In this document: in pieces, positions 9,968-27,706 of the stretch
How positions within the stretch are numbered: the first letter of the stretch is position 1
Layout: the number at the start of each line of letters is the position of its first letter
From: Bacteroidaceae bacterium
GTDB lineage: Bacteria; Bacteroidota; Bacteroidia; Bacteroidales; Bacteroidaceae
NCBI GenBank assembly: GCA_017642425.1
Contig: JAGCPB010000048.1
Location: 1-33,636, forward strand
Reading direction: 5' to 3'
Length of the DNA stretch: 33,636 bases
Notes under the pieces: generated by a model
Told to the model about the DNA's origin: nothing
What the model saw: the letters and a program-made list of their open reading frames with translations, nothing else
The model's database searches: none
Position numbers and translations under genes: made by a program

Positions 9968-12001
9968 ATGAAGAAAGTAACTTTATTTACAATTGCATTT
10001 GCAGGAATGGCTATGATGTCATGTAACAATTCAAAGCAGGGCATTGGTATCAAACTTGAGAATCTTGATACCAGCGCAGTACCCGGTGATGATTTTTTCC
10101 AGTTTGCTGACGGCGGTTGGAACGCCGCTCACCCGCTTACTGACGAGTATGCACGTTTTGGCAGTTTTGACCAGCTGGCCGAGGATAACCGTGAGCAGCT
10201 TAAGGGTCTGATTGATGAGATTGTGGCTGCAGATAATGAGCCCGGCACCAATGCCCAGAAGATAGCTGACCTCTACAAGCTTGTACTTGACACCGCCCGT
10301 CGTGACAAGGAGGGTCTGGCTCCGCTCAAGCCTTGGATTGAAAAAATAGAGGCTGTAAAGGATCGCAAGGAGGTGTTCCCGCTTATGGTTGAGTTGGATC
10401 TGAACGGTCTTACCGGAAACTATTTCGGAGTAGGAATTGGGGCTGATATGATGGACAGCAAGTCAAACATAGTAAGCATAGGTCAGGGCGGCCTGTCACT
10501 TGGTGAGAAGGAGTATTATCTTGATACCGATGAGGCTACCACCGCCATCCGTGAGGCTTTCAAGAAGCACATTGTACGTATGTTCACCCTTTGTGGATTC
10601 GATGCCAAGACCGCTCAGAAGAAGATGGAGGATGTGATGCTTATTGAGACACGCATTGCTGAGAAGTCATACAGTGCCGTACAGCAGCGTGATCCCGCTG
10701 CCAACTATCACAAGATGACATTTGAGCAGCTCAAGAAGGATTACAAGGGCATTGACTGGCAGATGATGTTTGATGCCATCGGTATAGGTGACTGCGAGGA
10801 GGTTGATCTGGGTCAGCCTGAGCCTATCCATGAGGTGGAGGCTATTCTGGCCAAGGTTCCGGTTGAGGCTCACAAGTCATATATGGAGTGGCAGCTTATT
10901 GACAATGCCGCTTCAAAACTTACCACAGAACTTGATGAGGCTAACTTTGATTTCTATGGCAAGGTTATGAGCGGACGTCAGGAGCAGCAGCCCTGGTGGA
11001 AACGTGCCACATCAACTGTAAGCGGTGTGTTGGGTGAGGCAATAGGTCAGCTTTATGTCGAGAAGTATTTCCCTGCAGAATCAAAGGAGCGCATGACCAC
11101 CTTGGTCAAGAACCTTCAGATAGCTTTGGGCGAGCGCATAGATGCACAGGATTGGATGAGCGAAGCCACCAAGGCCCGTGCACATGAGAAACTGGATGCA
11201 TTCTATGTAAAGATTGGTTATCCTGACAAGTGGAAGGATTACTCAAAACTTGTGATTGATCCCAGCAAGAGCCTGTTTGAGAACAATATAGCAGTGGCTC
11301 ATTACTTCCTTCAGGATATGATTGACCGTAAGTACAAGAAGCCGGTTGACAATACCGAGTGGTTCATGACCCCGCAGACTGTCAATGCATATTACAATCC
11401 TACTACAAATGAGATATGCTTCCCCGCCGGTATCCTGCAGTATCCGTTCTTTGATATGAGTGCTGATGACGCTTTCAACTACGGTGCCATAGGCGTTGTC
11501 ATCGGACATGAGATGACTCACGGATTTGATGACCAGGGACGTCAGTTTGACAAGGACGGTAACTTTAGCGACTGGTGGGCAGAGGGTGATGCCGACAAGT
11601 TTAAGGAGCATGTACAGGTTATCGTGGATCATTTTGACGGCATCAAGGTGCTGCCTGACCTGAACGGCAACGGTTCACTCACATTGGGTGAGAATATTGC
11701 TGACCACGGTGGTTTGATGGTCGCCTATCAGGCATTCAAGAACGCCACAAAGGATGCTCCCCTGAAGACCGTGAACGGTTATACCCCTGAGCAGCGTTTC
11801 TTCATGGCATATGCAGGCGTATGGGCAGGCAATATCCGTGACGAGGAGATTCGTAACCGTACCAAGAGCGATCCTCATGCACTGGGCCGCTGGCGCGTGA
11901 ACGGTACACTGCCTCATATCGATGCATGGTATGATGCATTCAATATCACACCTGACAACAAGCTTTATCTGGCTCCTGATAAGAGAGCAAGAATCTGGTA
12001 A
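9968..12001 (+). CDS. M13-family zinc metallopeptidase, lipoprotein (PepO-like)
   Basis: This 677-aa neprilysin-like endopeptidase has a lipoprotein signal (Cys19 in AMMSC), so it acts at the envelope. The N-terminal M13 domain runs to about residue 440. The catalytic domain has HEMTH at 514-518 (two zinc His and the catalytic Glu515) and ENIAD with the third ligand Glu575 and Asp579. The C-terminal region has the conserved RVNGTLPHIDAWYDAFN, and the protein ends RARIW, as M13 enzymes usually end near a conserved W. It is followed after five bases by a second M13 gene, evidently a tandem duplicate. Confidence 0.93.
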   Translation: MKKVTLFTIAFAGMAMMSCNNSKQGIGIKLENLDTSAVPGDDFFQFADGGWNAAHPLTDEYARFGSFDQLAEDNREQLKGLIDEIVAADNEPGTNAQKIADLYKLVLDTARRDKEGLAPLKPWIEKIEAVKDRKEVFPLMVELDLNGLTGNYFGVGIGADMMDSKSNIVSIGQGGLSLGEKEYYLDTDEATTAIREAFKKHIVRMFTLCGFDAKTAQKKMEDVMLIETRIAEKSYSAVQQRDPAANYHKMTFEQLKKDYKGIDWQMMFDAIGIGDCEEVDLGQPEPIHEVEAILAKVPVEAHKSYMEWQLIDNAASKLTTELDEANFDFYGKVMSGRQEQQPWWKRATSTVSGVLGEAIGQLYVEKYFPAESKERMTTLVKNLQIALGERIDAQDWMSEATKARAHEKLDAFYVKIGYPDKWKDYSKLVIDPSKSLFENNIAVAHYFLQDMIDRKYKKPVDNTEWFMTPQTVNAYYNPTTNEICFPAGILQYPFFDMSADDAFNYGAIGVVIGHEMTHGFDDQGRQFDKDGNFSDWWAEGDADKFKEHVQVIVDHFDGIKVLPDLNGNGSLTLGENIADHGGLMVAYQAFKNATKDAPLKTVNGYTPEQRFFMAYAGVWAGNIRDEEIRNRTKSDPHALGRWRVNGTLPHIDAWYDAFNITPDNKLYLAPDKRARIW

Positions 12002-12006
12002 AAAAA

Positions 12007-13974
12007 GTGGGTACATCGGCCGGTGTTAGAGAGGACTATCTGGACCGGAGCGTAAGCCCCGGCCAGGATTTCTACCGATTCAGTTGCGGAGGATGGCTTG
12101 ACGCCAATCCTCTGCCCGATGAATATCCCAGCTACGGAACATATGATGAGTTGGCAGAGCAGAACCGCCGCCGGCTCAAGGATCTTATAGACGGCATCAT
12201 TGCAAAGGAGCATACTCCCGGCAGTGATGCCGCCCGTATTGCAGACCTCTACAATCTGGTAATGGATGTGGAGCGTCGCAATAGTGACGGGCTGGCTCCT
12301 ATCAGACCTTATATGGATCGTGTCAAGGCCATAAGCAGCCGTCAGGAGCTGATAGATGCCATGATAGAACTGGACTCTTATGGAGTGACAGGTTATTTTG
12401 ATGTGGGCATAGGGCCGGACTTGAAGGACAGTAAAAACAATATCGTTGGGTTGAGTCAGGGCGGACTTACCCTTGGCGACAAGGAGTATTATACAGACCG
12501 TGACCGTCAGACCCAGAATATACGCAAGGCCTTTAAAAAGCACGTTGTGCGTATGCTTATGCTGGCCGGTTATAGCAGGTGGGAATCGCGTTCCCGCATG
12601 CGCACTATCTGGCGTATAGAGAAACGCCTGGCAAAGGCTTCACGAAACAATGTACAGTTGCGTGACCCGGCTGCCAACTATCACAAGATGTCCATGGACC
12701 AGCTCTATGAACGGTTGCCGGGACTGGATTGGAAGAGTTTCTTCAGCAAACTGGGCCTTGATGGAGTGGATTGGGTTGACGTGGGCCAGCCCGAGGCAAT
12801 AGCCGAGGCTATCCGCGTACTCAACGAGGAGCCGCTTGAGGACCAGAAGATACTCATGGAGTGGCAGATGCTGGACTCAAACGGAACCAGATTAGGGCAG
12901 GAGGCCGATGATGCCGACTTTGATTTCTACGGCCGCACCTTGAGCGGACAGAAAGAGCCCAAGCCTATGTGGAAACGTGCCACAGCCGCTGTCAGCGGCA
13001 CGCTTGGTGATGCTATCGGGCGGCTGTATGTTGAGAAGTATTTCCCGGCCGAGGCCAAGGAACGCATGATCCGGATGTTCCATAATCTTAAGAATGCGCT
13101 GGCGAACCGTATCCAGGCACAGGACTGGATGAGTAAAAAAACCAGACAGCTTGCGCTTGACAAACTGGATGCGTTCAAATTCAAGATAGGTTACCCCGAC
13201 AAGTGGCGTGACTACTCCAAAATGGAGATAGATTTCAATAAATCCCTGTTTGAGAACAGCGCCGCAATAAGCCGTTTCTTCTGGAACGATATGGTGGAAC
13301 GCAAGTTCAAGAAACCGGTTGACCTTACCGAGTGGTATATGAACCCGCAGGAGATCAACGCCTATTACGATGTCTCAACCAATGAGATATGTTTCCCAGC
13401 CGGAATACTTCAATATCCGTTCTTCAGCCTGGAGGCTGATGATGCCTTTAACTACGGTGCCATCGGCACTATCATGGGTCATGAGATGACCCACGGGTTT
13501 GATGATGAGGGGCGTCAGTTTGACAAGGAGGGTAATATGTGTAATCTCTGGAGCGCAACTGATACACGCCGTTTCAACCGCCGCGTCAAGGTTCTGACCG
13601 ACTGGTTTGACAGCATGGAGGTGCTGCCCGGAATCAGGGCCAACGGCAAGCTTACATTGGGCGAGAATATTGCCGATCACGGTGGGCTTACGGTGGCTCT
13701 CGAGGCTTTCCGTGAGGTTTGTAAAGAGAATCCCGGTAAGGAGGAGATGGGCTTTACACCACTGCAGCGTTTCTTTATAGCATACGCCTGTACGTGGGCT
13801 GAGAACTGCCGTGACGAGATGGTGCTGCAGCAGACCAAGAGTGACGAGCACTCTCTTGCCCGTCTGCGCGTGAACGGTGCCCTGCCGCACATAGACGAGT
13901 GGTATCAGGCATTTGGAATAACAGAAGACGATCCCATGTACATTGCCCCCAAAGAGAGGGTGCATATCTGGTAA
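12007..13974 (+). CDS. Second M13-family metallopeptidase, lacking a signal peptide
   Basis: The 655-aa paralogue of the preceding gene aligns with it along its whole length. The active site is intact: HEMTH at 492-496, ENIAD from Glu553, RVNGALPHIDEWYQAF, ending RVHIW. It begins directly with the mature M13 domain (YLDRSVSPGQDFYRFSCGGW) and has no lipobox or signal sequence. The only upstream start is GTG at 12007, five bases after the first gene's stop, in a different frame, so translation is probably coupled. It is therefore predicted cytoplasmic, unlike its neighbour, unless export is unconventional. Confidence 0.88.
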   Translation: MGTSAGVREDYLDRSVSPGQDFYRFSCGGWLDANPLPDEYPSYGTYDELAEQNRRRLKDLIDGIIAKEHTPGSDAARIADLYNLVMDVERRNSDGLAPIRPYMDRVKAISSRQELIDAMIELDSYGVTGYFDVGIGPDLKDSKNNIVGLSQGGLTLGDKEYYTDRDRQTQNIRKAFKKHVVRMLMLAGYSRWESRSRMRTIWRIEKRLAKASRNNVQLRDPAANYHKMSMDQLYERLPGLDWKSFFSKLGLDGVDWVDVGQPEAIAEAIRVLNEEPLEDQKILMEWQMLDSNGTRLGQEADDADFDFYGRTLSGQKEPKPMWKRATAAVSGTLGDAIGRLYVEKYFPAEAKERMIRMFHNLKNALANRIQAQDWMSKKTRQLALDKLDAFKFKIGYPDKWRDYSKMEIDFNKSLFENSAAISRFFWNDMVERKFKKPVDLTEWYMNPQEINAYYDVSTNEICFPAGILQYPFFSLEADDAFNYGAIGTIMGHEMTHGFDDEGRQFDKEGNMCNLWSATDTRRFNRRVKVLTDWFDSMEVLPGIRANGKLTLGENIADHGGLTVALEAFREVCKENPGKEEMGFTPLQRFFIAYACTWAENCRDEMVLQQTKSDEHSLARLRVNGALPHIDEWYQAFGITEDDPMYIAPKERVHIW

Positions 13975-18989: not shown

Positions 18990-19051
18990 GTTTATTGCGA
19001 TAAACAAAATATAAGAAAATTTGTTTATTCCGATAAACAATTGTATAATTG
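18990..19051 (+). promoter_or_regulatory. Twin palindromic operators and promoter of the DUF4143 ATPase gene
   Basis: GTTTATTGCGATAAAC (18990-19005) and GTTTATTCCGATAAAC (19023-19038) are two near-identical imperfect palindromes 33 bp apart (three helical turns). The second fills the spacer of a good promoter: TTTG at 19020-19023, 20 bp, TATAATTG at 19044-19051. A protein bound there would block transcription. The upstream copy could also affect divergent mazG. Confidence 0.65.
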
Positions 19052-19066
19052 CAGAAAAATAGGATT

Positions 19067-20278
19067 ATGGAACTTTTATTTGAGCGACACGCAGAGTATC
19101 TAACAGATGTACCCACATCTTTTGAGCGGGAACTGATGCAAACCATAGACTGGGATTCAAGACTCATTCTGATACGTGGTCCCAAGGGCGTTGGAAAGTC
19201 AACTCTGATGCAGCAGTATATACTGAATCATTATGATGTTACAGACCGTCATGCGCTTTACTGCACGGCGGACTCATCGTATTTTGCCACGCATACGTTG
19301 GTAGATACTGCCGCTTCTTTCGTTAGACAGGGCGGTAGCCATCTGTTCATTGACGAGATACACAAGTATGATGGCTGGAGCAGCGAGATAAAGGAGATAT
19401 ATGACCTGTATAAAGGCTTGAGAGTGGTATTGAGCGGTTCATCACTTATTCAACTAAATGACGGACAGGCTGATTTGTCTCGGCGTGAGGACGTATATGA
19501 TATGCCGGGACTTTCATTCAGGGAATACTTGTGGTTCAGGACCGAAAAAAAAGCGGCTCCGGTAAAACTAGACTATTTGCTCAGTAATGCCGGATCTTTC
19601 TGCACACATATTCGTTCTCTATATCGGCCATTGGAATATTTCAATGATTATCTACGTATGGGATACTATCCTTTCTCGTTCGAAAAGAAAAAAACATTCA
19701 GGATGCTTATAGAAAATGTGACGGGTTATATCATAGATTCAGAACTTACAAAATACCGTGGAGTAAGCCCGGAAAACACACGTAAGATAAAAGCTCTTCT
19801 TCAGGTAATAGCCGAAATGATTCCATATCAGGTTGACATCTCTAAACTGTCGTCGTGTGTGAGCATAGACCGTGTTACGCTTATCCGCTATTTAAGATAT
19901 TTGAATGAGGCAAAACTCTTAAAGAATCTGTTTACGGAACTGGATAAGATAACTGACCTTCAGAAACCGGATAAGATTCTACTTGACAACCCCAATCTGA
20001 TATATGCCTACAGCATAAAGGAACCGGAAATAGGAACGGTACGGGAAACCTTCTTTTGCAACCAGTTGACATCGGCCGGTCACAGAGTGGAATATGGTGG
20101 TATTAAGACGGGTGATTTTAGGATTGATAAGAATCTGGTAATTGAGGTGGGTGGCGCCGGAAAAGATTTCTCCCAGATAAATGATGAAGATATAAATAAT
20201 GCAGCTCTTGCTTTAGACAACATTGATATAGCAAGTCCAAAGAAAATACCTCTTTGGGCATTTGGCTTCCTTTATTGA
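19067..20278 (+). CDS. AAA ATPase with winged-helix and DUF4143 domain
   Basis: The 403-aa protein starts at the ATG 19067; a TTG at 19049 lies inside the -7 box. The AAA domain has Walker A GPKGVGKST (38-46) and Walker B LFIDE (D96/E97), then LRVVLSGSS as sensor-like strand. A winged-helix-like segment follows (IKALLQVIAEMIPYQVDISK, then SSCVSIDRVTLIRYLRYLNE). The C-terminal DUF4143 part contains DFRIDKNLVIEVGGAGK, reminiscent of a PD-(D/E)xK nuclease-like core. This family is very common in Bacteroidetes and archaea and its function is unsettled. Base composition is more A+T-rich than the genes to its left, hinting at transfer. The wHTH and the operators suggest autoregulation. Confidence 0.85.
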   Translation: MELLFERHAEYLTDVPTSFERELMQTIDWDSRLILIRGPKGVGKSTLMQQYILNHYDVTDRHALYCTADSSYFATHTLVDTAASFVRQGGSHLFIDEIHKYDGWSSEIKEIYDLYKGLRVVLSGSSLIQLNDGQADLSRREDVYDMPGLSFREYLWFRTEKKAAPVKLDYLLSNAGSFCTHIRSLYRPLEYFNDYLRMGYYPFSFEKKKTFRMLIENVTGYIIDSELTKYRGVSPENTRKIKALLQVIAEMIPYQVDISKLSSCVSIDRVTLIRYLRYLNEAKLLKNLFTELDKITDLQKPDKILLDNPNLIYAYSIKEPEIGTVRETFFCNQLTSAGHRVEYGGIKTGDFRIDKNLVIEVGGAGKDFSQINDEDINNAALALDNIDIASPKKIPLWAFGFLY

Positions 20279-20320: not shown

Positions 20321-20380
20321 TTTGTCCCATTTTTGTCCCATCGGCTTTTTTGATTTTTAGTGGGTTAATGCATACTTTTG
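20321..20380 (+). promoter_or_regulatory. Promoter of the TPR regulator with paired TTTGTCCCA repeats
   Basis: TTTGTCCCA occurs at 20321-20329 and again at 20332-20340 (11-bp period). Downstream lie TTTG (20349-20352), 20 bp, TACTTTTG (20373-20380), a perfect -33/-7 pair. The second repeat starts 41 bp before the -7 box. The repeats end ~9 bp above the -33, typical of an activator site. Confidence 0.78.
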
Positions 20381-20404
20381 CCCTAACCATATCTGTGGCG
20401 ATAT

Positions 20405-22003
20405 ATGAATAGGGTTAGGTTGGTATTCTATACTGTATTGATTGCGATAATCCCAATCAGTGTCGTTTCCTGTTTACATGATAATGGCCGATTGCGGGAG
20501 GCTGAGTTGCTGATGGAGACTGACCCCAAGGAGGCGGATTCAATTTTAGTTTCTATGACGGAGCCTACATCCCGTAGAGACCGCGCATGGTATGTTGTTC
20601 TCAAGTCCCTGGCTGATTGCAAGAATGACAGGATTATCACATCGGACAGTCTGATACGTACGGCAACAGACTATTATGGCTCTCTACATAAGAATTACCG
20701 TGCTGCGGTAGCATGGTACACCCATGGATGTGTGTATACACATTTGGGAAATGATCATTCGGCAATATATGCTTTCCTAAAGGCAAAGGATCTTTTTCCC
20801 GATACTCTGGTGCATTATTATGCACTTACGGAATATAAGTTGGGAACCCGGTATCAGAATATGAAGATGTACAATCAGGCAATGGTTCAGCTCATGAACA
20901 GCAGCATCAATGCCGATAGATTGCAGGATACAGTAACGTCATATAAGTCAAACCTAATGTTGTTTGAATGTGCATTGCGACTTGGAGAGGAAGATGCTTC
21001 AAATCAGTTTTTCAATACAATTTTGTCAAGGCAAGATTATATCCATGAAACATTTTCGGACGATACATTGTTTGACGGGACAAGACTAAGATATTACATA
21101 GTAGGAGATAAAGGCGATTATTCATTGCCTGAGGGAGCTGATTATCCTTTCAAGGCAAAGATGTATTTAATGAAAGGAATATATGATTCTGCCTACTTCT
21201 ATTACCGGAAAGCCTTGGAAAACACAACGTATTTGTATGGAAAGCAGAATCTTGCCGATAATCTGACAAAGGTATCTGTATTGATGAACAATCAGGATGA
21301 AGCCATGTATTGGCACGATTATTATGGCCGGTTAAGCGATTCCATAAGGATTGCAGAGAAAACGGATACCAAGGATATCACTGACCTGCAAAATGTACAT
21401 CTTCAGGAATTAACTGAAGAGAGAATGTGGAATAGGCACAAACGCTTTATGATATTAGGATTATCCTCATTGCTATTGTTTGTGGCATTGACGTTACTTG
21501 CTTATATGATGTTCAAGAATAGGGAAAAGAAAAGGATAATCCTCAGGCAAGAGGATTTACTAAATATGGAACAGGAGATACGCAAGGGGAGTATAGCTAT
21601 CCTGGAATCGCAGGTAAGAGAGCAGTCGCAAACCAATCCGCAGGCGCGGACAGCATTGCTAAATCTATATGCCCATAGACTACAGATGGGCAGTGATTAT
21701 TTCCGTAAGACTAATGAATATAAGAGTTTGCTATCGGCTGCATCCGGTAGCATTCTGAGCGCCGAAGAAAAGGCCATTGCTATGGCTGCATTGGAGCAGT
21801 CATTCAGCGATACCATTGTGGATATGCAGACGGAATACCCGGGTATGGATAAGGAGGAGTCATTGACTCTGATCCTGTCATCACTTGGTTTTAAGAACGA
21901 ACTGATTGCAGAACTGTTCGGCAATGTTACAGCCGAAGCCATCCGGAAGAGAAAGTACAGGTTCGGTAAGGCTAATCCCGAATTCTTTGCCTTGTTCCGT
22001 TAA
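20405..22003 (+). CDS. Membrane-bound TPR regulator with C-terminal helix-turn-helix
   Basis: The 532-aa protein begins with a lipoprotein-like signal (Cys23 in PISVVSC). Residues ~30-340 are helical TPR-like repeats (AVAWYTHGCVYTHLGNDHSA, AYFYYRKALENTTYLYGKQN) expected in the periplasm. One strong transmembrane helix follows at ~348-368 (LGLSSLLLFVALTLLAYMMF), then a ~160-residue cytoplasmic part with a coiled coil and a terminal LuxR/sigma-4-like HTH (ESLTLILSSLGFKNELIAEL, then TAEAIRKRKYRFGK). This fits a one-component sensor that reads an envelope signal and binds DNA from the membrane. It is followed by two MG2-type secreted proteins, the first with matching promoter repeats, so these are likely targets. 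A+T content is higher than in most of the window. Confidence 0.82.
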   Translation: MNRVRLVFYTVLIAIIPISVVSCLHDNGRLREAELLMETDPKEADSILVSMTEPTSRRDRAWYVVLKSLADCKNDRIITSDSLIRTATDYYGSLHKNYRAAVAWYTHGCVYTHLGNDHSAIYAFLKAKDLFPDTLVHYYALTEYKLGTRYQNMKMYNQAMVQLMNSSINADRLQDTVTSYKSNLMLFECALRLGEEDASNQFFNTILSRQDYIHETFSDDTLFDGTRLRYYIVGDKGDYSLPEGADYPFKAKMYLMKGIYDSAYFYYRKALENTTYLYGKQNLADNLTKVSVLMNNQDEAMYWHDYYGRLSDSIRIAEKTDTKDITDLQNVHLQELTEERMWNRHKRFMILGLSSLLLFVALTLLAYMMFKNREKKRIILRQEDLLNMEQEIRKGSIAILESQVREQSQTNPQARTALLNLYAHRLQMGSDYFRKTNEYKSLLSAASGSILSAEEKAIAMAALEQSFSDTIVDMQTEYPGMDKEESLTLILSSLGFKNELIAELFGNVTAEAIRKRKYRFGKANPEFFALFR

Positions 22004-22006
22004 TCA

Positions 22007-22066
22007 TTTGTCCCTTTTTTGTCCCAGTCTTAATAATGGGGTTATTGGAATTAATGCCTATATTTG
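22007..22066 (+). promoter_or_regulatory. Promoter of the first MG2 gene with paired TTTGTCCC repeats
   Basis: TTTGTCCCT (22007-22015) and TTTGTCCCA (22018-22026) repeat with an 11-bp period, and TATATTTG (22059-22066) is the -7 box, 41 bp from the start of the second repeat, exactly as at 20321-20380. The -33 position (22035-22038) reads AATG, a poor match, so this promoter may need the activator. Confidence 0.75.
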
Positions 22067-22086: not shown

Positions 22087-24906
22087 ATGAGAAGGGCTTG
22101 TCTGTTTGCTTTTGCTATTGTTTCGGCGCTTGGTCAGGTTGTGGCCGGAAATGATGCGCTGATACGGTTTGCGGGAAACATTCATCAGTTCAATGAGTTG
22201 TTTCCACAGGAGAAGGTATATCTGCAGTTTGACAATACCGCTTACTTTCAGGGCGATGATATCTGGTTCAAGGCGTTTGTGGTAAAGTCGGCCAATCTGG
22301 ACCGGACGGAATCAGGGGTGCTGTATGTGGATTTGCTGTCTCCCAATGGGGTGTTGCTCCAACAACAGAAACTCAAGATTGTAGCCGGACAGGCCGATGG
22401 ACGCATACAGTTGGTGGATTACGCTACGGAGCAGGCTCGTGAACTGCGGGGAGTTCGTCCATATCCCAGCGGGTATTATGAGATAAGGGCTTATACGCAG
22501 TATATGCTGAATTTTGATCCGGACATTATATTCTCACGTGTGCTGCCGGTGTATCAGACTCCCGATAAGGAGGGTGACTACAGTAATCCGGTCATAACAT
22601 CGGACTCTACCATGTACAGCCAGAACCGCCCGCAGCAGGAGAGACTGCGTAAGGTAAATGTGGCGTTCTATCCTGAGGGCGGCAATATGGTGCGTGGCCT
22701 GCCTTGCCGCGTGGCGTTCAAGGTTACTGACGGTAACGGGGTGGGTATAAACGGTAAGCTGACAGTGGTGCTTGAGGACGGCAGTAAGGTTGTGGCCGAG
22801 AGCGGACATGAGGGTATGGGGTCGTTTGAATTCACGCCCGGCAAGAAGAGTGCGGATGCAACGTTTGAATATGGCGGAAAACGGTACTCTGTAACGTTAC
22901 CATTGGCACAAAACAACGGCTATACAATGATGGCCGATATGACCGGCAGGAAGAACAGCCTGCATATTGATGTGAACCGTACAGCGTCTCGTTCAGAGGA
23001 GACTATAGGAATGACAGTTACCTGTCGTGGTGAGTTGGTGATGTTTGAGGAACTGCCCATGAAAGGTAATGGCGGAGATTTCTCTTTTGATACAAAGCAA
23101 TGGCCGGCAGGAGTGTGCAGGATAGTGCTGTTCACTGACAAGGGCGAGGTGCTGGCGGCTCGAAGCGTATATAACGGCAATCTTAAGTATGTGCCGCCTA
23201 CGATAGAGGTCAAGCCCGATAAGCGGCGTTATGATGCGTTCGGCAAGATGCACCTTTCATTGCAGCTTAAGGGTAGGGACGGCAAGCCTTTCCGTGACCG
23301 TTTCTGCATATCGGTGCGTGATGCAAGTGATTATGGTACACAGTATGCCGATAATCTGCTCACTGATTTCTTACTGTCATCTGACCTTAAGGGATTCATT
23401 CATAATCCGTCATACTATTTTGAGTCATCGGACAAACAGCATCTTAGGAATCTGGACCTGCTATGCATGGTACAGGGTTGGGAACGTTATGACTGGGAAT
23501 ACATGACTGACAACAAGGTGTTTAAGGAAACACGCCGTATGGAGACCAGCCTGAGCCTTAACGGAATGATAATGACCAACCGTATTACCAGAGACCGCGC
23601 TATGGATGATGTCAAGGTATATGTGGCAGTTTCTCCACGTGACGGCGAGTATGTGGAATACGGTCAGGCGGTTACTGACAAGAACGGATACTTTGGGTTT
23701 GACATGAGGGATTTTTATGGCAAGGTTGATGTGACTATGCGTCTTACCAAGGCCAGGAATACAACAGAGCCAAGTGCCAAGATACGTCTGGAACGTGCCC
23801 AACTCCCTGCGCTTAGGGCTTACAGCAAGCAGGAACTGTTGCCGGGTTGGTCTGTGAAGAAACCGTCTGCCAATACTACTGGTACTGCCGAATCTGCAGG
23901 GGGTGCAACACTCAAGGATTATCCTGCTATAATAAATGAGTCAGAAGGTCTTGTTTTGCCCACGGTAAGGATTGACGGTGACAGGAAGTATGTGGATTAT
24001 TTCACATTCAAGTCTTTTGATGTGGAGAAGGATGTGGATGCTGTACTGGATCTGGGTAACCACTCCACTGATTTGACAGGGTATCTGATAGATAAGGGAT
24101 ACTCCGTCTATAACCCCATAGATGTAAGTGCTATCTGGCTGTATCTGAATAGTGATGAGTATATCTATAACCATTATATCAACTATCTGGATTACAATTA
24201 TGACACTCATCTGGCGGGTGAGGATTTCTTGCCGCAACATGTAGACTATGATCGCTATATTTACCAGTATATGTATCCAGAGGTTTATGATATGCCGGAA
24301 CTGGATATGCATTTCAGTGACAGACTGCCGGATAACAACTATTTCCAATTGAACGGGAATCCTGTTATCTGTTATGTGCATGATGACAGGGGTTTCTACA
24401 CCAATGGTAAATACTCACAACCTTGGAGGATTGATACGCGGGATATAGAGAGTCTGCTCATCTTTGATGACCTTCACAGCATGTCTGAGATTGGTGATTA
24501 CGCTCCCGATTATCTGAACTATCTTAAAAGCTACAGTGCTGTACCGACCATGATATCAAACAGGACAGGCAAATTCAGTGACCGCATGGTTCTGCTGGAT
24601 ATAAAGCTTAAGGATAATCACCGTATGACCGATAACCCGGACCGTTTCAACCTGGGCAAGAGAGTGACAACGATGCAGGGTTTCAGCCGTAGCCATGAGT
24701 TCTATGCTCCTGCATATCCCGACGGCGCCATTGTGGGTGATGTGGATTACCGTCGTACCCTCTACTGGAATCCCAATGTGATAGCCGATGAGAACGGTCA
24801 CGCTGAGATAGAATTCTACAACAACTCATACAGCACAAAGTTCAACGTAAGCGGTGCAGGCATTACCGCCTCCGGTCAGCCATACGTTTTGGACAAGGAG
24901 TTTTGA
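22087..24906 (+). CDS. MG2-domain (alpha-2-macroglobulin-like) secreted protein, paralogue 1
   Basis: The 939-aa product has a signal peptide (MRRACLFAFAIVSALGQVVA), with the start placed after the promoter at 22059-22066. The N-terminal part, FPQEKVYLQFDNTAYFQGDD then IWFKAFVVKSANLD and LYVDLLSPNG, is the macroglobulin MG2 domain as found in large Bacteroidetes cell-surface proteins. Further Ig-like beta domains follow, including a carboxypeptidase-regulatory-like segment (LNGMIMTNRITRDRAMDDVK). The C-terminal DYRRTLYWNPNVIADENGHA, then EFYNNSYSTKFNV, is typical of these proteins. A Tyr-rich insertion (about 678-745) is absent from paralogue 2. No thioester motif is seen, so a protease-trapping role is not supported; a surface or periplasmic binding role is likelier. 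Confidence 0.8.
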   Translation: MRRACLFAFAIVSALGQVVAGNDALIRFAGNIHQFNELFPQEKVYLQFDNTAYFQGDDIWFKAFVVKSANLDRTESGVLYVDLLSPNGVLLQQQKLKIVAGQADGRIQLVDYATEQARELRGVRPYPSGYYEIRAYTQYMLNFDPDIIFSRVLPVYQTPDKEGDYSNPVITSDSTMYSQNRPQQERLRKVNVAFYPEGGNMVRGLPCRVAFKVTDGNGVGINGKLTVVLEDGSKVVAESGHEGMGSFEFTPGKKSADATFEYGGKRYSVTLPLAQNNGYTMMADMTGRKNSLHIDVNRTASRSEETIGMTVTCRGELVMFEELPMKGNGGDFSFDTKQWPAGVCRIVLFTDKGEVLAARSVYNGNLKYVPPTIEVKPDKRRYDAFGKMHLSLQLKGRDGKPFRDRFCISVRDASDYGTQYADNLLTDFLLSSDLKGFIHNPSYYFESSDKQHLRNLDLLCMVQGWERYDWEYMTDNKVFKETRRMETSLSLNGMIMTNRITRDRAMDDVKVYVAVSPRDGEYVEYGQAVTDKNGYFGFDMRDFYGKVDVTMRLTKARNTTEPSAKIRLERAQLPALRAYSKQELLPGWSVKKPSANTTGTAESAGGATLKDYPAIINESEGLVLPTVRIDGDRKYVDYFTFKSFDVEKDVDAVLDLGNHSTDLTGYLIDKGYSVYNPIDVSAIWLYLNSDEYIYNHYINYLDYNYDTHLAGEDFLPQHVDYDRYIYQYMYPEVYDMPELDMHFSDRLPDNNYFQLNGNPVICYVHDDRGFYTNGKYSQPWRIDTRDIESLLIFDDLHSMSEIGDYAPDYLNYLKSYSAVPTMISNRTGKFSDRMVLLDIKLKDNHRMTDNPDRFNLGKRVTTMQGFSRSHEFYAPAYPDGAIVGDVDYRRTLYWNPNVIADENGHAEIEFYNNSYSTKFNVSGAGITASGQPYVLDKEF

Positions 24907-24907
24907 T

Positions 24908-24985
24908 TTTTAGGGAAATCCCCCTTTAATTTTAGGGAATTTCCCCATATCATGTTGGAAGTCAATAAGTAATTTTACATGTTGC
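24908..24985 (+). promoter_or_regulatory. Intergenic GGGAA-CCCC repeats before MG2 paralogue 2
   Basis: TTTTAGGGAAATCCCC (from 24908) and TTTTAGGGAATTTCCCC (from 24930) are two dyad-like repeats 22 bp apart (two helical turns). No good -7 box follows; TACATGTTG (24976-24984) is the nearest. They could be a variant of the TTTGTCCC regulatory site, or an unrelated operator or attenuator between the paralogues. Confidence 0.5.
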
Positions 24986-24997
24986 TTATTATACTCT

Positions 24998-27706
24998 ATG
25001 CTTATGAGACGGTTGGGATTATTGTTTGTATTTGCGGCGCTTCTTGTTTCCGGTGGGGTAAAGGCCGGTAATGATGAACTGATGCGTTTTGCCGGGAATA
25101 TCCATCAGTTCAATTCCATTTTCCCGCAGGAGAAAGTGTACCTGCAGTTTGACAACACTTCTTATTACACGGGTGAGACCATCTGGTTCAAGGCGTTTGT
25201 TACCAGCGCATCGGACCTGATGCGGGCTCCGAGCAAGGTGTTGTATGTGGATTTGGTATCACCGGGCGGGCAGGTGCTAAAACAGCAGAAACTGATGATT
25301 GTGGCCGGTCAGGCCGATGGCTCATTGCCTCTGCTTGACGGTTCTACAGCCCAGGCTCGTGACAAAAGAGGGGTGCTGGAATACCCCAGCGGATTCTATG
25401 AGGTTCGTGCCTATACCAGCAATATGCTCAATTTTGACGAGCGTATTGTGTTTTCACGTGTATTTGCGGTATTTGAAAAGCCTAAGAAAGACGGCGATTA
25501 TTATGGCTCCAGCCCCGTGGTAAAGATACGCAAGGGGGAGGATATGGATCCACGCCCCAAAATGGAGAAGACAAAAGAGATAAACGTGTCATTCTACCCT
25601 GAGGGCGGGCACCTGATAATGGGTAAGCCTTGCCGTGTGGCTTTCAAGGTGACCGATGAGACTGGATTCGGCATAGATGCACAGGGTTCTGTAGCGGACG
25701 GCGCGATATCATTCTCAACTGTTCATAACGGAATGGGGGAGTTCACATTCACGCCAGGACAGAAACGTAATCAGGCAGTTATTACGGTTGACGGCCAGTC
25801 ACGCAAGTTTGACCTTCCGCAGGCAGAGACATCGGGATTGGTACTGAGGGCAGAGCCATCCGGCACAGATGATCTGACTGTTACGGTTGATGCAACAGAT
25901 GATTTTACAGGTACCACTCTTGGTCTGACCATTACCTGCCGCGGAGAACTGATGGACTTTGTGACCATTGAGACGGGCTCCGGGCAGACAGAGAAGGAGC
26001 TGTCACTTGTAGGGGTGCCTGAGGGCGTGTGCAGGATTCATCTGTTTGACAGTAACGGTACGCTTTATGCAAGCCGGTCATTCTATCACCATAACCAGAT
26101 CATGAAATCACCTGTACTGGATGTTACAGCCGATAAGAGCAGCTATGGTCCGTTTGACAAGGTGTCACTCTCATTCAAACTGGAGGACGGTAACGGGAAT
26201 CCGTTCCGTGACCGTTTCTGCCTGTCGGTCCGTGATGTCCGCAGTCATGGAAACCCGTTTGCTGATGATTTGCGCACGTCAATGCTGCTGTCATCAGACC
26301 TTCGTGGTATGATTGAATCACCGTCCTGGTATTTTGATTCGGATGATGCTGAGCGTGACCATGCGCTTGATCTGCTCTGCATGATTCAGGGCTGGGAACG
26401 TTATGACTGGGCTACCATGACCGGCCAGAAGGAGTTTACTGAGAGACATCGTATTGAGGAGAGCCTGACCGTGAACGGATGGGTTATGAATTCATCGGGC
26501 AACAAGCCGCTCAAAAACGCCGAGGTCAATGCATCTCTTGTGCCCGAGGACAAGAAACTTACTGAGCTTTATTCTTACAAGACCGATTCTACGGGATATT
26601 GGGGCTTTGATCTGGGTGTCAACTTCTATGACAAGGCAAAATTCACCATTGGAGCTTCTACGGGCAAGAAACGTATTATCGGCCCTGATGCAAGGATTGT
26701 GTTTGAACGCTCTATCCAGCCTTCCATCCGCGCTTTTAATCCGGAGGAACTGGTTGTAAAAAGCAATCAGATAAAAAAGAAGAGAGTTGAAAGCAGTCAG
26801 GCTGCTCCTGATGAAGATGACGGTCTGCCGGCTGTGGTCAGTAAAGAGAAGGGCTTTGTGCTGCCCGAGGTAGATATTGAGGAGGACCGCATGTACATAG
26901 ACTATTTCACTTTCAAGGCATATGATGTGATTTATGATACGGAACAGGAACTTGACAAGGGGGAATATTCCACAGACCTGTACGGGTATTTAAGGAATAA
27001 GGGTTATGAAATAGCGGATACCTGCTTTGGTGATTTCAATGCTGATTCTGTAATTATAAACGGGTTCAAGGCATTCTTCTACATCCATGATGCCAAGACC
27101 TACTATGACAAGGGGATATCAGACTATCCGTTCTCAATAGATGCTCAGGACATAAGGAGCATTATTGTTTATGACAGACCAATGCTTATGACTGAGATCA
27201 TTCAGGTTTGCCCATTGTTCGATGATTTCCTGGGCAAAGGTATGTTGACTATGCTTGGATCTGAAAAAACAGACTATAGGGATATGTTGATGGATGACAT
27301 GCCTAACGATTTTGTCGTTAGCGATGCCTTCCCTGGAAGAATCATTAACAATCCACGAAGAAATGCCCAACAACTTGAGCGAAGAAAGATACTGATTGAC
27401 ATTCAATTGAAAGAGAAGACGGAGATGAGTACGCACTCTGATCTGTTCAGGTTGGACCGTCGCGTGACTACTGTTGACGGTTTTTCCAGGCCGTACAGTT
27501 TCTACGCACCGGAATACCCCAATGGACCCATTCCCGGTGATGTGGATTACCGTCGCACTATCTACTGGAATCCCAATGTCATAGCCGATGAGAACGGCCA
27601 TGTGGAAGTTGAATTCTACAACAACTCATACAGCACAAAGTTCAACGTAACAGGTGCCGGCATCACCGCCTCCGGTATGCCCTACGTTTTGGACAAAGAC
27701 TTCTAG
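24998..27706 (+). CDS. MG2-domain (alpha-2-macroglobulin-like) secreted protein, paralogue 2
   Basis: The 902-aa product is a tandem paralogue of the preceding protein, with a signal peptide (LMRRLGLLFVFAALLVSGGV) and the same order of parts: NDELMRFAGNIHQFN, FPQEKVYLQFDNTSYYTGET, IWFKAFV, the SLTVNGWVMNSSGNKPLKNA Ig-like domain and the C-terminal DYRRTIYWNPNVIADENGHV block. It lacks the Tyr-rich insertion of paralogue 1 and has a shorter segment there. A stretch of 40 bases near the 3' end (27611-27650) is identical to 24811-24850 in paralogue 1, showing recent duplication or gene conversion. It may be read from the upstream promoter or from the repeats in the 91-bp gap. A second ATG at 25004 is also possible. 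Confidence 0.8.
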   Translation: MLMRRLGLLFVFAALLVSGGVKAGNDELMRFAGNIHQFNSIFPQEKVYLQFDNTSYYTGETIWFKAFVTSASDLMRAPSKVLYVDLVSPGGQVLKQQKLMIVAGQADGSLPLLDGSTAQARDKRGVLEYPSGFYEVRAYTSNMLNFDERIVFSRVFAVFEKPKKDGDYYGSSPVVKIRKGEDMDPRPKMEKTKEINVSFYPEGGHLIMGKPCRVAFKVTDETGFGIDAQGSVADGAISFSTVHNGMGEFTFTPGQKRNQAVITVDGQSRKFDLPQAETSGLVLRAEPSGTDDLTVTVDATDDFTGTTLGLTITCRGELMDFVTIETGSGQTEKELSLVGVPEGVCRIHLFDSNGTLYASRSFYHHNQIMKSPVLDVTADKSSYGPFDKVSLSFKLEDGNGNPFRDRFCLSVRDVRSHGNPFADDLRTSMLLSSDLRGMIESPSWYFDSDDAERDHALDLLCMIQGWERYDWATMTGQKEFTERHRIEESLTVNGWVMNSSGNKPLKNAEVNASLVPEDKKLTELYSYKTDSTGYWGFDLGVNFYDKAKFTIGASTGKKRIIGPDARIVFERSIQPSIRAFNPEELVVKSNQIKKKRVESSQAAPDEDDGLPAVVSKEKGFVLPEVDIEEDRMYIDYFTFKAYDVIYDTEQELDKGEYSTDLYGYLRNKGYEIADTCFGDFNADSVIINGFKAFFYIHDAKTYYDKGISDYPFSIDAQDIRSIIVYDRPMLMTEIIQVCPLFDDFLGKGMLTMLGSEKTDYRDMLMDDMPNDFVVSDAFPGRIINNPRRNAQQLERRKILIDIQLKEKTEMSTHSDLFRLDRRVTTVDGFSRPYSFYAPEYPNGPIPGDVDYRRTIYWNPNVIADENGHVEVEFYNNSYSTKFNVTGAGITASGMPYVLDKDF

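Follow-up and report, generated by a model that had tools for sequence, protein, structure and literature searches.

Tandem repeats at a fixed distance from two promoters as the putative operator of a TPR-TM-HTH regulator and its neighbouring surface gene in Bacteroidales

Two promoters on either side of a membrane regulator gene in an uncultured Bacteroidales bacterium carry, each at the same distance from the -7 box, a tandem pair of the repeat TTTGTCCC, and these pairs are probably the operator by which the encoded TPR-TM-HTH protein activates its own gene and a neighbouring MG2-like gene. The whole stretch of DNA analysed, here called the window, is 33,636 nt of a Bacteroidaceae bacterium (GCA_017642425.1, JAGCPB010000048.1, positions 1 to 33,636, forward strand). 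The case is built on the sites, their locked spacing to the promoter, their conservation, their co-occurrence with the regulator, the covariation of repeat and HTH and the domain order of the protein, all of which come directly from computation.

The regulator gene (20405..22003, + strand, as are all features of the locus given here) encodes 532 aa and is preceded by the first putative operator, TTTGTCCC-N3-TTTGTCCC at 20321..20339; the second, of the same form at 22007..22025, lies 5′ of the first MG2-like gene. Both can be read directly, with single units at 20321-20328 and 20332-20339 and at 22007-22014 and 22018-22025, so that the 11-bp period noticed in an earlier sequence-only reading is there at each promoter. 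So is the equal distance which that reading gave, as the second repeat begins 41 bp before the -7 box in both cases (20373 − 20332 = 22059 − 22018), the boxes being TACTTTTG at 20373..20380 for the regulator and TATATTTG at 22059..22066 for the MG2-like gene. A -33-like TTTTTTG at 20346..20352, 20 bp 5′ of its -7 box, is present at the regulator promoter, while at the MG2-like gene TTG is absent at -33 spacing. The ORF of the latter is listed from an ATG at 22036, which is 5′ of the gene's own -7 box, and the ATG at 22087 is the likely start as it fits both the promoter and a signal peptide, giving a first secreted protein encoded by 22087..24906. A second MG2-like secreted protein (24998..27706) is perhaps co-transcribed with the first; TAnnTTTG is absent from the gap between the two genes. 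Two inverted repeats built as AGGGAAATCCCC / AGGGAATTTCCCC are present in this gap (24907-24950). Elsewhere in the window, an AAA_14/DUF4143-type ATPase gene (19049-20278) is immediately 5′ of the regulator, and its end recurs before the orthologous regulator of genome G019; adjacent ORFs of 677 and 655 aa within 9968-13974 have translations that look closely alike by eye and may form a tandem pair of peptidases.

A lipobox, a TPR solenoid, a single TM helix and a C-terminal HTH follow one another along the regulator. The lipobox cysteine, Cys23, is at least 90% conserved in 52 sequences, and by author-defined rules a lipobox is present in 76 and a TM in all of the 82 family ORFs of at least 480 aa (82 of 91 being kept when shorter ones were dropped). 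In the AF2 model of the protein (pLDDT 86.7) the TM, at about 348-370, is within a single long helix, 297-408, and the C-terminal end has helices at 498-505 and 510-523; the C-terminal part modelled alone reaches a pLDDT of 93.6. Its profile matches EvgA and NarL-type HTHs, the best E value being 0.0018 (EvgA). At E values up to 0.1, matches to GerE and Sigma70_r4_2 are found in 2 and 7 of 45 members respectively, and at the curated cut-off no family member was seen to match GerE. In its TPR part the protein is similar to Rap, PlcR and LGN, so that a peptide or a protein ligand is possible. The genome of 2.62 Mb has seven full-length members of the family.

Within the window TTTGTCCC-N3-TTTGTCCC has just the two matches, with none further even when up to three mismatches are allowed; shuffling gives 0.23 expected matches, with two or more in one of 100 shuffles. 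As the motif was picked after the sequence had been seen, the comparative test outweighs these window statistics. The sequence-only reading had proposed a motif search of the genome and of the surroundings of orthologous regulators, and in the genome this yields three exact pairs, the two at the locus and a third on contig 53, immediately 5′ of a paralogous regulator. Since that regulator shares the TTTGTCCC repeats, there may be cross-talk between the two. Allowing two mismatches adds three matches: an alternative register of the contig-53 array, one at C53:44172 that precedes a secreted-protein gene with the box missing at the right place, and one at C24:234 without a box.

A scan of 37 genomes of the genus found 23 exact matches in 13 genomes (22 places, one three-repeat array being counted twice), and none for the reversed pattern used as control in the same 37. 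A perfect TAnnTTTG is downstream of 18 of the 23, in 13 cases 40-42 bp away, counted from where the second repeat begins, and in five cases 51 bp away, where an extra, mostly degenerate, repeat unit follows and puts the last unit at 40 bp. Four more have a near-box at 40-42 bp, so that the spacing is locked in 22 of 23; the single site lacking a box is in G030, a genome with no family member. A second scan, for TGTCC pairs 26-49 bp from a box in the loci collected by then, placed all 21 distinct promoters at 40-42. Eighteen of the 23 exact sites have a family member at most 1 kb away and five do not: one (G022:C88) stands at the head of five genes in a row on one strand, the regulator and the MG2-like gene among them, one (G026:C8) precedes a lone MG2-like gene, two, both in G018, precede other secreted-protein genes, and the fifth is that of G030. 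Genes that share the predicted operator are mostly for secreted proteins other than MG2.

Orthologs were taken as full-length proteins with the helix GNVT(A/D/P)(E/D)AIRKRKYR or a near form, of which there are eight (G000, G019, G005, G020, G021, two in G022 on C37 and C88, and G026:C4), regulator fragments in G026:C2 and G006 being left out. Loss of the motif at orthologous loci had been named as what would speak against the proposal; it is kept at all eight, G021 and G026:C4 having one mismatch and the other six none, the repeat standing at the regulator, at the next gene or at the head of the regulator's gene run. In G000, G019, G005 and G020 it is found both upstream and downstream of the regulator. 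The first operator is kept with identical spacing in G019 and G005 and with one mismatch in G020, and the second is identical in G019 and G020; downstream in G005 the repeat is followed by a TATATTGC box and a gene that is not MG2-like. At G022:C37 and in G021 the repeat is again on both sides, the upstream copy being without a good box, and at G022:C88 and G026:C4 it heads the gene run. In G026:C2 (L048) the upstream site is kept in front of a 96% identical regulator copy that breaks off after about 167 residues, and another gene comes next.

Both -7 boxes of the locus fit TAnnTTTG, the -7 promoter consensus given in PMC7366714, and in this respect the promoters are like those of sigma-ABfr (-33 TTTG, -7 TAnnTTTG). 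The -33 TTTG is seen at the regulator promoter and is missing at that of the MG2-like gene, and unlike sigma-ABfr promoters both have the additional tandem repeat at a fixed upstream place. That the MG2 promoter has no good -33, which the sequence-only reading had taken as the expected state of an activator-dependent promoter, holds in the window and less well outside it, as TTG is present at 19 bp in the G019 ortholog, and among 17 typed promoters (the 21 of the TGTCC-pair scan minus four near-duplicates) TTG at 18-23 bp is present in seven and missing in ten.

Sister clades have other repeats in the same position. With a strict rule (a direct repeat with 7/8 or more bases alike, at a period of 11 or 12, whose second copy lies 37-43 bp 5′ of the box), a repeat accompanies 16 of 43 boxes located 0-260 bp past the stop of a family member and 11 of 73 TAnnTTTG boxes upstream of its start, as against seven of 300 other TAnnTTTG boxes at those loci (Fisher 3e-11 and 8e-5, respectively, for sequences that are related and not independent). 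Eleven of the 16 post-stop repeats differ from TTTGTCCC and include TTGTATAC, GTATAC, AGTCC, TTTTTCCG, TTGGGACA, TTTGGACA, TTGGGACG, GTGACGTT and GGACGCTT. Ordering by the HTH tree brings out groups: period 11 goes with RKRK helices, whose repeats are TTTGTCCC or TTTTTCCG, and with SGxRxxK helices, whose units are TTGGGAC-like, and period 12 goes with KQR/KKR helices, whose repeats are GTATAC, AGTCC or GTCCA. In the DVTDGC-helix clade, TGTCACGG units are spaced by about two turns. Among 14 representatives, repeat distance follows HTH distance (Mantel r 0.71, p 0.0002) more closely than TPR distance (r 0.40), and the partial correlation with the HTH on TPR distance is still 0.64 (p 0.0002), the p value in each case being the floor of 5000 permutations. 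The units compared were typed by the author from related sequences, with two (L053 and L057) below the strict rule and with L026 (6/8) and regulators without detected repeats left out.

The repeats of individual paralogs seem to be private ones. Single occurrences in the genome of the TGTATAC pair and of the TTGGGACA pair are each directly after the pair's own regulator, and elsewhere in the genus the TGTATAC pair adjoins orthologs in two genomes and is an orphan in G017. At that orphan locus (L140, G017:C1, 1340-1520), a TGTCCCAA pair and a TGTATAC pair are separated by 160 bp; a family regulator is not found close to them, and they are perhaps remnants. Under the strict rule four of the seven members in the genome have repeats (contigs 42, 53 twice, and 105) and none was found for those on contigs 86, 10 and 2. 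Counted over the family, the rule is satisfied by 24 of 91 ORFs, the other 67, some of them at contig ends, being without a repeat, and repeats are absent from the largest clade (CTSRSNMRSIKSR helix) and from the NRSxSYSGRLKQY clade. The tandem-repeat rule thus belongs to part of the family.

Genes downstream of family regulators encode secreted or surface proteins. The two in the window score 14 and 24.9 bits with MG2 (PF01835), both below the cut-off of 32.8, and for that reason are termed MG2-like only. Other downstream products are small DUF3244 proteins and proteins with DUF3244 together with S74 and T9SS-tail domains. DUF3244 (PF11589) is not in either MG2-like protein among Pfam matches with E up to 0.1 and is found beside sister regulators: all three matches in the genome, one of them below cut-off, directly follow a family regulator, and so within 1 kb downstream do 18 of 32 in the genus, or 14 of 19 when DUF3244 is in an ORF of at most 160 aa. 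In other families of the order, where 29 loci (L149-L177) of 48 matches were inspected, a family member is at five, in four directly upstream; one of these, L154, has a clean 7/8 repeat at 41 bp and so matching geometry, and the remaining three have a 6/8 repeat at 40-41 (L149), a period-13 repeat nearer the box (L150) and none. A C10 cysteine peptidase with a Spi inhibitor domain is encoded two genes past the contig-105 regulator (L037, 4638-5855, − strand), and at L040, L046, L070, L075 and L047 a regulator clade is directly behind genes whose ends look by eye like those of BspA-type surface proteins with leucine-rich repeats.

The sequence-only reading put forward the TPR-TM-HTH protein as the candidate binder, and four independent computational lines now support it. 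The sites adjoin the regulator or head its operon at the eight orthologous loci; an RKRK-type recognition helix is found in 14 of the 37 genomes (fetched loci) and exact sites in 13, with 12 in common (Fisher p 6e-7); paralogs with other HTHs carry other direct repeats at the equivalent position; and repeat spacing is locked to the promoter. Binding of the regulator to the TTTGTCCC repeats is strongly indicated by the sequences, and activation by it, and the signal to which it would respond, are proposed at one further remove. A different regulator could read TTTGTCCC, with the TPR genes merely among its targets, and the five exact sites more than 1 kb from any family gene would suit this, but the covariation of repeat and HTH across paralogs, the RKRK helix in 12 of the 13 motif genomes and the private repeats of other paralogs make it a quite unlikely explanation. 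Even less credence is due to the idea that the 19-bp copies flanking the regulator are ends of a recombination unit or mobile element and not operators; direct copies on both sides of a gene, and genes after the regulator that vary between strains, are what such an origin would leave, but single-copy sites, sites at operon heads and the locked distance to the promoter box make it very improbable.

How the bound protein acts is a separate matter. The HTH could be a repressor or dual regulator at TTTGTCCC, giving negative autoregulation and a surface protein silenced until the signal comes; a location upstream of -33 is no proof of activation, and the promoter of the regulator gene itself, with its fair -33, might need no help. 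However, the repeats stop about 9 bp short of the -33 region on its upstream side and so are not over the promoter, which is the mark of an activator, as are the locked spacing to the -7 box and the ten of 17 promoters without TTG at 18-23 bp, and repression is an improbable reading, though a less remote one than either of those just considered.

In the favoured reading, that of an activator, the regulator would be anchored at the inner membrane, its TPR part reaching into the periplasm, where an envelope signal may free or orient the cytoplasmic HTH. The HTH would then occupy the two or, in some cases, three repeats head-to-tail at a spacing of one helical turn and, being directly upstream of the -33 region, recruit RNA polymerase to the -7 promoter. 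In this way the regulator would turn on its own gene or operon, whose promoter retains a basal -33, together with the MG2-like surface gene beside it, whose promoter has none; the head-to-tail mode, the topology and the positive feedback that self-activation would bring are all proposed from the arrangement. Other clades of the family may act alike with private repeat sequences and private secreted targets.

In membrane one-component regulators of the ToxR/CadC type, one chain joins a periplasmic sensor through a single TM helix to a DNA-binding domain in the cytoplasm. Sensor, TM and DNA-binding parts are in one chain here too, with a topology that is predicted, and the differences are the reversed domain order with the HTH C-terminal, the TPR sensor, the lipobox and the type of HTH. 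The TPR solenoid is shared with the RRNPP receptors (Rap, NprR, PlcR), which are soluble cytoplasmic proteins whose HTH, if any, is N-terminal; in contrast, the regulator has a signal/lipobox, a TM helix and an HTH at its C-terminus. For that HTH the nearest known counterparts may be those of LuxR/NarL-type regulators (EvgA, NarL, LiaR), with the profile matches to EvgA and NarL-type HTHs and no match to GerE seen at the curated cut-off. It would seem to work like a membrane one-component regulator, with the reversed order, the TPR sensor and the lipobox as new features. An account of the family or operator was not found in the literature searched, which took in few subscription papers.

The sequences as a whole point to a family of surface-protein switches, each of them private. 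A rather speculative extension, doubtful as it stands, is that the switches are mutually insulated and self-amplifying, with every regulator recognising a tandem operator of its own and the TPR part sensing the switch's own secreted product (DUF3244 or MG2-like) or the state of the outer membrane, which the lipid might reach, and that the outcome is a bistable choice of surface coat within a single genome. TPR-TM-HTH proteins are abundant in Bacteroidales genomes and annotated merely as TPR proteins. For one clade of them there is now a predicted DNA code, comprising a repeat per recognition helix, a promoter distance and secreted targets, that opens the way to regulon prediction and a binding test. 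The family also offers natural regulator-operator pairs that are seemingly orthogonal, and DUF3244, a domain of unknown function, gains a genetic context.
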